Of a stretch of 41,439 nucleotides of DNA, positions 1 through 1,512 are shown piece after piece. Every line of letters starts with the position of its first letter. Position 1 is the first letter of the stretch. The notes under the pieces are model-generated. The model was not told the DNA's origin and made no database searches. It saw only the letters and a list, made by a program, of their open reading frames with translations. This DNA is from Clostridiales bacterium (GTDB lineage Bacteria > Bacillota > Clostridia > Saccharofermentanales > Saccharofermentanaceae): positions 1 to 41,439 of the forward strand of contig JAGCGK010000145.1 of the NCBI GenBank assembly GCA_017649645.1. The letters are read 5' to 3'. A program made the translations under genes and the position numbers.

Positions 1-64
1 CAGGGCTCGAACCTGTGACCCTCTGCTTGTAAGGCAGATGCTCTCCCAGCTGAGCTAAGCTTCC
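1..64 (-). tRNA. tRNA-Val (anticodon TAC), 3' end cut by the window start
   Basis: On the minus strand the 5' acceptor begins GGAAGCT at 64. It is followed by a D arm (GCTC...GAGC), an anticodon stem TCTGC/GCAGA with loop CTTACAA, and a T arm with GGTTCGAGCC. Loop positions 34-36 read TAC, so it decodes GUA as valine. The acceptor 3' strand lies outside the window. A consensus promoter sits upstream. Confidence 0.95.
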
Positions 65-215: not shown

Positions 216-291
216 GGGGTATTAGCGCAGTTGGGAGCGCATCACACTGGCAGTGTGGGGGTCACGGGTTCAAGTCCCGTATACTCCACCA
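216..291 (+). tRNA. tRNA-Ala (anticodon GGC), CCA encoded
   Basis: A complete 76-nt cloverleaf. The acceptor GGGGTAT pairs with ATACTCC with one G-U pair, followed by encoded ACCA. The D stem is GCGC/GCGC. The anticodon stem TCACA/TGTGG carries loop CTGGCAG, so the anticodon is GGC (alanine, GCC codons). The T arm is ACGGG-TTCAAGT-CCCGT. Confidence 0.95.
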
Positions 292-340: not shown

Positions 341-907
341 TCAATACTTGCTGTTCATGTATTTCTCAAGGAATTCCTGCTTACGCTCTTTTTTGCTTCT
401 GGCGATGTAAGAGATCGTAAATATGATCAATACTACACCGTAGATAACTGCAGAGTATGGAATAACTGTCTTGATATCAACTGTTGTTGAATCAGCATCA
501 CCTGCAAGTGAATAGATAGTCGGGTTATTCTTGTTTACATAGATCTGAATAACAGCTCCCTTTTTGTAAGGAGAATTGTTATATGTTGCGTGAGATGTGG
601 AAAGCGGAACATCAGACTTTTCCTTGTAAACGCTAAAGTCTCTTGTACTTGAATATGTCTGTCCCTTGTAGTTGAAGGAAACAGTAATAGTCTGAACAAA
701 GTTGATAACGTACTTATCCTTGAAGAGTCCCCTCTCTTTGTCTTCAACAGCAACAGGAGCTGATGAGGAAGTAATAGTACCGTAAATAAGATCGTGATCA
801 GCATGTGTAGTGAAACTGTTGATAAGAGCCCAAACACCGAATGTCATAGCTACAGCAAACACAGTGATAAGGAACACGGTCAACAGATATTTAAAGAACC
901 TCTTCAT
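341..907 (-). CDS. Membrane-anchored protein of DUF3592-like architecture
   Basis: 188 residues. One transmembrane segment lies at the N terminus (about 7-30) and one at the C terminus (about 150-170), followed by a short basic cytoplasmic tail. Between them is a predicted extracytoplasmic beta-rich part. A YKKGAVIQIYVNKNNP stretch resembles the 'G..V.vyvnP.nP' pattern of DUF3592 proteins, and I rest the family call on that pattern and the topology. A strong ribosome binding site (GGAGGT) precedes the ATG. The gene is monocistronic, with a terminator on each side. The biochemical function of the family is not known to me. Confidence 0.75.
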   Translation of the reverse strand: MKRFFKYLLTVFLITVFAVAMTFGVWALINSFTTHADHDLIYGTITSSSAPVAVEDKERGLFKDKYVINFVQTITVSFNYKGQTYSSTRDFSVYKEKSDVPLSTSHATYNNSPYKKGAVIQIYVNKNNPTIYSLAGDADSTTVDIKTVIPYSAVIYGVVLIIFTISYIARSKKERKQEFLEKYMNSKY

Positions 908-993: not shown

Positions 994-1026
994 ACAAAAA
1001 AACCGTCGTCTGATGCGGCGGTTTTT
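994..1026 (-). terminator. Terminator of the large structured RNA
   Basis: On the minus strand AAAACCGCCG (1025-1016) pairs with CGACGGTTTT (1008-999) across a 7-base loop, with one G-U pair. A T-run follows (1002-996). It lies just after the closing helix of the RNA. On the plus strand the same hairpin ends in TTTTT and could also stop plus-strand transcription. Confidence 0.8.
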
Positions 1027-1477
1027 CTGCATAGAAAAGCTCCAGCGAACCAATCAACTCTACTTCCCGATTAACCACAATTCCTTTACTCGAGCCTCTG
1101 CCAGCCATAACGCCTAACCGATTGCCATTGCCTTCAACGTAACTCCCAAACAATGACCCCTTCTCACCGCTTAATAAGTCGTTACTCACTTCTTTGTTTA
1201 TCGCCCCCGATTACTCGAAAGCTGTCATAAACTTAAACCGGCTACTCGGTTCGCACGATTAGGATGTACCGTTAGGTCTGTAGCTTCGAACTTCTCCTGT
1301 CGGCGGCGACCTCTCACACAACCGCGGATCAAACGTCCGAACGACTAAACTGTTACAACCTGCGACTTGCGGATAGCATCCCATCCCGTCAATCGCTGCT
1401 CGCTTCCAACTTCTAGGAAACCTATCTGTTGGCGACCGTGGTTCGAAAACTTAAGTGTTCTCGTATTCCCTGGAGCT
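996..1477 (-). ncRNA. Large structured non-coding RNA, ROOL-like candidate or new class
   Basis: This 739-base gap has no credible gene but has every mark of a stable RNA. There is a promoter at 1512-1484, an expected start near 1477, and a terminator ending near 996. The ends close on each other. AGCTCCAG (1477-1470) pairs perfectly with CTGGAGCT (1045-1038), and CGAACCA (1445-1439) pairs perfectly with TGGTTCG (1052-1046), directly stacked on it. Inner helices I can draw: CGAGAAC/GTTTTCG (1463-1457/1450-1444, sharing two bases with the second closing helix); TCG+CCAAC/GTTGG+CGA with inner TAGG/CCTA (1435-1400); GCGATT/AGTCGC (1396-1391/1367-1362); AGGTC/GACCT (1312-1308/1278-1274); TCGAAGCT/AGCTTTCGA with one bulge (1289-1282/1223-1215); AACCG/CGGTT (1251-1247/1240-1236); AAACAA/TTGTTT (1199-1194/1153-1148). 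I do not find the RNase P, tmRNA or SRP signatures. Size, tRNA neighbourhood and host type suggest ROOL, but this is inference. Confidence 0.72.
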
Positions 1478-1483
1478 ATTTTC

Positions 1484-1512
1484 AGTATATTATCCCTACC
1501 CTTGTAACGCAA
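1484..1512 (-). promoter_or_regulatory. Promoter of the large structured RNA
   Basis: TTGCGT (1512-1507) and TATACT (1489-1484) are spaced by 17 bases on the minus strand. The predicted start, about 7 bases downstream, coincides with the first base of the closing helix. That agreement supports both calls. Confidence 0.7.

Follow-up and report, generated by a model that had tools for sequence, protein, structure and literature searches.

Few bacterial RNAs as large and complex as the one described here are known, and most of those have no assigned function. The most similar in size and style are ROOL, which forms a homo-oligomeric nanocage, GOLLD, OLE, and raiA/ModT, the last of which is much shorter than most copies of the present RNA. 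In PMC12286853, ROOL is described as a prophage and phage RNA, often near tRNA islands, and GOLLD as a phage and prophage RNA; PMC11706538 describes raiA/ModT as widespread in Bacillota. The gene analyzed here lies in a 41,439-nucleotide contig of a Clostridiales bacterium (this whole stretch is referred to as the window). Its product resembles ROOL (RF03087) in size, rumen hosts, and elaborate pairing but has no covariance model (CM) match to it, has no match in the phage or plasmid collections searched, and occupies a conserved chromosomal place. Like OLE, which is about 600 nt long, it is an extensively paired RNA of Bacillota, again with no CM match. GOLLD is also large, complex, and near tRNAs in some hosts, but it is described as phage or prophage borne (PMC12286853), and its model does not match. 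raiA/ModT (RF03072) is likewise a trans-acting RNA on Bacillota chromosomes (PMC11706538), but not even the 269- to 291-nt forms of the present RNA match its model, which was run with no raiA control. The RNA is a family new to Rfam 15 that, in kind, joins the large structured bacterial RNAs; it is best read as kin in kind to OLE, raiA, and ROOL, with detectable homology to none. Our main reading, to which we assign a probability of roughly 0.6, is that the RNA forms a class of its own among large, structured noncoding RNAs that act in trans, the scaffold role discussed below included.

To place the RNA among known families, all 4,227 models of Rfam 15 were scanned, with a positive control for ROOL only. 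At gathering thresholds, the window gave two tRNAs only and 16 relative loci gave tRNAs only. A permissive scan (E values up to 10) of the window RNA and one relative (L027) returned weak subthreshold matches only, among which ROOL, OLE, GOLLD, raiA, RNase P, tmRNA, and SRP were absent; four further relatives scanned at an E value of 0.5 and four copies from genera g25 to g27 scanned at 5 gave the same picture. The ROOL model found nothing on the window RNA or nine relatives (L027, L119, L134, L131, L124, L164, L166, L167, and L168), while the ROOL of Ligilactobacillus salivarius pMP118, its region taken from PMC5643018, was recovered at 130.4 bits. A ROOL search of 59 relative genomes was also negative, but control genomes gave none either, so it shows nothing alone. 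On the same ten sequences, no match was obtained with the raiA/ModT, OLE, or GOLLD model (each run with no positive control of its own) or with the 6S RNA model (RF00013). The first-pass annotation had suggested a possibly ROOL-like RNA, perhaps a short ROOL, and proposed an Rfam comparison; with no family match for the window or the nine relatives, and with no sign of a phage-borne gene in the searches made, the ROOL identity was rejected.

A divergent member of the ROOL, GOLLD, OLE, or raiA/ModT families would fit the similar size and style and the wide spread of raiA/ModT in Bacillota (PMC11706538). We consider this very unlikely: six sequences scanned at E values of 5 to 10 and four at 0.5 gave no match to any of these (with a control for ROOL only), the gene sits in chromosomal synteny, and the searches made gave no phage, plasmid, or viral match. 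The reported absence of RNase P, tmRNA, and SRP signatures was borne out, and these identities were rejected, since the models do not match and the genome carries separate genes for RNase P (RF00010; G000:C163:51297-51646, 257 bits), tmRNA (RF00023; G000:C4:30350-30725, 160 bits), and the bacterial small SRP RNA (RF00169; G000:C180:9506-9605, 79.8 bits). Among the literature records listed, often the top-ranked of a longer set, no title or abstract opening concerned this RNA, although published lists of candidates may include it without a name; the comparison with the literature also covered passages of PMC5643018, PMC12286853, PMC8632094, PMC8040213, and PMC11706538.

The stretch examined almost certainly holds a real gene for a large folded noncoding RNA (Table 1). 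The minus-strand unit proposed earlier (TTGCGT-17-TATACT, start at 1477, terminator near 996) held when its coordinates were rechecked, as did the coincidence of the start with the first base of helix P1: the A six nucleotides past the −10 element opens AGCTCCAG. Transcription is predicted to begin at the first paired base. Relatives point to the same architecture. Of 91 homologues, 74 have their best TATAAT match starting 12 nt ahead of the first paired base, 7 have it starting 13 nt ahead, and 10 have it elsewhere; the −35 element is TTGACA in most copies from sister genera; and a similar hairpin follows the 3′ end in most of the listed homologues, by inspection. Both ends were recovered in relatives found by the core model or the 5′ motif alone. 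A simple promoter and terminator scan missed both elements on the minus strand and reported the terminator hairpin as a plus-strand one. The GC content of the RNA is 49%, versus 30% and 18% in the flanking spacers. By blastn, the window RNA is 85% identical to the copy in genome G038, where the neighboring 188-amino-acid (aa) and PF04018 proteins are 36% and 81% identical, respectively, to those of the window.

Table 1. Positions of the RNA gene, its signals and helices, and neighboring genes in the window
Feature	Position	Strand	Remarks
PF04018 membrane protein, 301 aa	1647..2552	-	Upstream neighbor; outside RNA gene
Palindrome GTGTGCA-AAA-TGCACAA	1545..1561	.	At -84; one mismatch to TTGTGCA-N3-TGCACAA; likely operator
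-35 element TTGCGT	1507..1512	-	17-nt spacer to -10 element
-10 element TATACT	1484..1489	-	Followed by 6 nt, then A at 1477
RNA gene	996..1477	-	Predicted transcript 1477 to 996, ~480 nt; both ends recovered in relatives
P1, 5′ strand AGCTCCAG	1470..1477	-	Pairs 2 to 8 in 63/63 aligned homologues
P1b, 5′ strand GAAU	1465..1468	-	Stacks on P1; 63/63, invariant
Short hairpin	1406..1432	-	Replaces ~130-nt domain of most relatives (alignment inspection)
P3, 5′ strand CGAGC	1398..1402	-	Long range; pairs with 1091..1095
P4 hairpin GCGATTG...CAAGTCGC	1362..1396	-	Helices 13 and 14; 99.7% and 99.6% of cells paired
P5, 5′ strand	1342..1359	-	Closes central domain
P6 arm	1285..1341	-	Helices 17 and 18; 89.8% and 97.0% of cells paired; 9/20 pairs changed on both sides
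P7-P9 stack with variable tip	1124..1284	-	Helices 19 to 23; contains most conserved stretch, 1257-1239
P5, 3′ strand	1104..1121	-	Closes central domain
P3, 3′ strand GCTCG	1091..1095	-	Partner of CGAGC
P1b, 3′ strand GUUC	1047..1050	-	Partner of GAAU
P1, 3′ strand CTGGAGCT	1038..1045	-	Faces AGCTCCAG
Intrinsic terminator	996..1026	-	Hairpin and T run; end ~996
188-aa protein	341..907	-	Downstream neighbor; weak DUF3592 match below cutoff; outside RNA gene
tRNA-Ala	216-291		
Second tRNA	1-64		

Homologues were collected by nucleotide and model searches. blastn gave matches in 47 of 59 genomes of the same genus; two matches of 29 to 30 nt in other genera were treated as chance. A 21-base core pattern searched against the genome_contigs collection retrieved 63 matching stretches, 62 of them labeled as Clostridia (Saccharofermentans, Ruminococcaceae, Oscillospiraceae, Clostridiales, and others), many from rumen or gut. 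The remaining one (L074, labeled Candidatus Kapaibacterium) has neither RNA end and was set aside as an apparent chance match in a protein gene, judged by eye. From 94 core matches, removal of L074 and of seven cut at a contig or locus end left 86 loci, corresponding to 63 distinct RNAs of 437 to 623 nt with both ends. A covariance model of the RNA core (R1) was then run on 188 genomes of the order; it matched 78 of 85 genus genomes and, weakly (22 to 33 bits), 20 of 23 genomes of the sister genus g28. All 12 of the g28 matches inspected have the 5′ motif, a 3′ motif 553 to 602 nt further on, and a −10 element at the same spacing; a hairpin beyond the 3′ motif is visible by eye in these 12. 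L135 is cut at a contig end.

The end motifs (GYTCCARGGAATRC and GGTTCGYTGGARC) extended the family further. The 14-base 5′ motif occurs exactly once in each of the seven genomes of g25 to g27, all missed by R1, and adds true copies in two of the three remaining g28 genomes, bringing that genus to 22/23. All nine copies found in this way have the exact 3′ motif, at a distance of 269 to 291, 427 to 429, or 587 to 589 nt. By either criterion, copies are present in 107 of 115 family genomes, spanning five genera and usually one per genome; carriers include the named isolates YAD3003, AB4001, and KHP2. The core model found no copy in seven genus genomes (G006, G010, G022, G033, G053, G142, and G153), and one g28 genome has no true copy by either the model or the 5′ motif. 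Three of the seven are 97 to 99% complete, so the RNA is dispensable or divergent in these eight genomes. Two 5′ motif matches were discarded: L171 and L172, from G033 and G156, have no 3′ end and resemble protein-coding sequence by eye. Elsewhere in the order R1 matched 0 of 73 genomes, and in a sample of the class it matched 0 of 380 outside the genus; as it missed g25 to g27 as well, these zeros do not show absence beyond the family. In G061, a complete genome of another family, one weak end-motif pair (3 and 1 mismatches) and one weak P4 match at a different place were attributed to chance. A stricter setting still recovered 12 of 12 known copies. The window's own assembly contains a second copy of the whole block (L002, G000:C46:1-3473, 82% identity). 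Its PF04018 protein is 80% identical to that of the window, as divergent as in other species, and its 188-aa protein is 35% identical; since the assembly is also rated 6.3% contaminated, L002 is probably a contig of another species (bin contamination) rather than a paralogue.

Folding energy by itself is modest evidence for structure. The minus strand folds at −158.9 kcal/mol, compared to −141.1 ± 6.1 for shuffled sequences (z = −2.9), and because 1 of 100 shuffles was as good, the case is carried by the homologues. The 8-bp closing helix P1 described in the first-pass annotation stands in its inner part, where pairs 2 to 8 form throughout the 63 homologues with compensatory changes at two of them (U-A replaces C-G in 3, and G-C replaces A-U in 23); only 23 of the 63 form the outermost A-U pair. 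The unbroken pairing is partly due to selection, as the 63 rows were chosen by loose end motifs (≤3 and ≤2 substitutions), and the compensations are unaffected by that choice. The second long-range helix that had been drawn, CGAACCA/TGGTTCG, was rejected because key pairs are not conserved among the aligned homologues: 39 of 63 have A-C at pair 34/431, and two of the five window-clade sequences have U-U at pair 36/429. An alternative partner for the 3′ GGTTCG is a 5′ GAAU, with which it can form a helix stacked on P1 (P1b) in all 63 rows. These pairs are invariant and thus give no covariation evidence; minimum-energy folds of eight single sequences from five genera all contain P1 and GAAU/GUUC.

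A multidomain structure was derived with RNAalifold from the 63 sequences. Over all rows, 94.4% of cells are paired, versus 32 to 39% in slid controls, and 56 of 131 pairs change on both sides, compared to a shuffled mean of 37.4 (0 of 500 as high); the structure scored on these 63 rows was itself derived from 58 of them. When the structure was derived without the window clade (58 sequences), 418 of 510 held-out cells (82%) paired, versus 31 to 46% with the partner slid by 1 to 3 columns, in an alignment that had been built with all rows, window clade included. Among 102 pairs in the held-out clade, 59 are the same, 14 carry a one-sided change, 11 carry a two-sided change and still pair, and 18 are unpaired, that is, not formed by the majority of the clade; the 11 two-sided compensatory pairs compare with a mean of 2.9 and a maximum of 7 in 301 redealt controls. 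In the reverse test, a structure from the five window-clade sequences paired 65% of cells in the others, versus 34 to 45% in the control, and has only 30 pairs in common with the 58-sequence structure.

Only one pair was significant in an all-pairs covariation test with APC, and three were in a two-set G-test. The APC test was judged too conservative for closely related rows, and tree event counts and the held-out clade were used alongside it. On the tree, 72 compensatory branches were counted, against a null mean of 2.5 (maximum, 8) in 200 simulated alignments and a maximum of 13 in 500 redealt alignments; pair-breaking branches numbered 150, compared to a null mean of 223. The long-range helices P1, P3, P5, P7, and P8 covary. 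With five genera, strong covariation, and no Rfam match, the earlier suggestion of a large structured noncoding RNA of a possibly new class stands.

Individual elements show how the fold is maintained. P3 appears as CGAGC/GCTCG, CGGGC/GCCCG, or CAAGC/GCTTG within the genus and as GCGAAC/GTTCGC, GCGAAT/ATTCGC, or GTGAAT/ATTCGC in sister genera; a P3 of at least 5 bp was found in all but one of the 89 copies examined (88), with covariation from genus to genus. Because 44% of shuffled controls also yield a 5-bp match of some kind, the argument for P3 rests on register and compensations. The P4 hairpin is present across five genera, with the strand variants GCGATTGA/CAAGTCGC, GCGGTTGA/CAAGCCGC, GCAATTGA/CAAGTTGC, and GTGGTTGA/CAAGCCAC; a loose pattern (≤2 substitutions per strand) finds it in 86 of 91 copies, partly via a neighboring word as the 5′ strand. 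P5 (helix 16) has 94.6% of cells paired and two-sided changes at 7 of 16 pairs, and helix 20 is kept in the window clade through a G-C to U-A change. Homologues range from 269 to 623 nt, changing by whole domains; at about 440 nt, the window clade represents a short form. Both ends, a CCGCC-plus-hairpin element, and P4 persist in the smallest relatives (269 and 291 nt); P3 was found in the one of the two that was looked at. These natural minimal forms, L167 (269 nt) and L166 (291 nt) of genus g26, are useful for structure work.

A large, multidomain RNA with invariant stretches (an CGTGCNAACCGAGTAGCCG-like block and GGTTCG) and with domain-wise size variation about a common core could also be a ribozyme or the RNA of a catalytic ribonucleoprotein (RNP) instead of a scaffold. 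The CYGAGTA part of the central block recurs outside the genus, in 16 of 21 copies (13/14 in g28, 2/3 in g27, and 1/2 in g26, with 0/2 in g25), but the full block, CGAGTARCCG, which is present in 68 of 70 genus copies, occurs in 0 of those 21. This genome has genes of their own for RNase P RNA and tmRNA, and no substrate is suggested; we regard a catalytic role as improbable. A wider version, in which the RNA is a family-specific machine of a new kind, self-assembling or catalytic, of 270 to 620 nt with its own regulator and a central place in host physiology, is unlikely, if somewhat less so; there, the outer domains would come and go about constant ends and a P3/P4 core, a picture we hold just as tentatively.

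Minus-strand open reading frames (ORFs) of 88 and 82 aa overlap the RNA gene, as a protein-coding or dual-function transcript would have it. The longest ORF has a median of 77 aa in 82 homologues versus 75 aa in shuffled sequences, so a coding signal is absent, and RNA lengths fall in all three frames (28, 34, and 20 of 82 homologues). Since covariation accounts for the pattern as well, coding can be practically dismissed.

The RNA gene is chromosomal, and its synteny is conserved. The nearest upstream ORF encodes a membrane protein (PF06695, MscS-like, or PF04018 group) in 46 of 63 loci, and in 38 of 63 the nearest downstream ORF is a convergent phosphoribosyltransferase gene (PF00156, hpt-like), often followed by a cytidylate-kinase-like gene. 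No protein gene invariably adjoins the RNA in the 63 loci, nor is any same-strand gene fixed downstream, and none of the named neighbors is known to be an OLE partner. The placement next to tRNA genes is a loose description of the window, where two tRNAs are present, with the 188-aa gene intervening; any tRNA is found in only 25 of 60 loci (3.2 to 8 kb each, a few representing the same genome twice, and the chance match L074 among them). No match was found in the phage collection (window and one g28 copy as queries), in the plasmid collection (window and one long form), or in viral contigs (two patterns). In L137, a direct repeat of about 96 nt is visible downstream of the RNA terminator.

A role in cis, as a leader or riboswitch controlling the gene that follows, would fit the window and three close relatives, where a same-strand gene follows at 105 to 143 nt. 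A terminator stands between the RNA and that gene, and 40 of 62 loci have the downstream neighbor, hpt-like 38 times, on the other strand, an arrangement that argues for an independent, trans-acting transcript. The leader reading is highly unlikely, marginally more so than a divergent known family.

Upstream of the promoter, the palindrome TTGTGCA-N3-TGCACAA is exact in 35 of 91 homologues, has at most two mismatches in 20 more, and is absent from 36. In 54 of the 55 it lies at −83 to −92 (in one, at −137), while shuffled versions of the upstream 160 nt contain it in 2 of 4,550 cases. A DNA-binding protein may therefore act there. Exact sites number 24 in 19 of 59 genomes, 16 beside R1 matches (compared by eye) and 8 elsewhere (loci concerned include L139, L143, L145, L147, L151, and L154), the latter including G007:C21. 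The window genome's only exact site (G000:C163:20645-20661, L147) precedes an 86-aa protein gene. Four genomes have the palindrome starting 159 to 160 nt ahead of a gene for a conserved ~85-aa protein, and in two it starts 183 to 184 nt ahead of a lipoprotein gene (solute binding by eye). Together the sites suggest a small regulon sharing one putative regulator; no regulator was identified. The subclade of L133, L134, and L136 to L138 has no palindrome and shares TTTGTCATTTGTGTTACATTG before the −10 element.

An own, apparently regulated promoter would also suit a trans regulator of gene expression, such as a 6S-like RNA polymerase binder, a sponge, or an antisense RNA, and 6S RNA was not detected in G000, G002, G004, or G005. 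The RNA carriers G001 and G003, however, have 6S-like matches elsewhere, below the gathering score, and the RNA is far larger than 6S; this role is doubtful, on a par with catalysis.

Returning to the main reading, the RNA would be transcribed from its own regulated promoter, beginning at the first paired base, with a putative DNA-binding regulator at the −83 to −92 palindrome controlling that promoter. The sequences show ends clamped by P1, covarying long-range helices (P1, P3, P5, P7, and P8), and a conserved hairpin, P4. By analogy with OLE, raiA/ModT, and ROOL, the folded RNA probably acts in trans as a stable scaffold, either within an RNP or as an assembly of RNA alone. The natural variants of 269 to 623 nt outline a minimal core of the RNA, the putative operator may offer a way to learn when it is expressed, and the named isolates that carry it (YAD3003, AB4001, and KHP2) make it open to testing.
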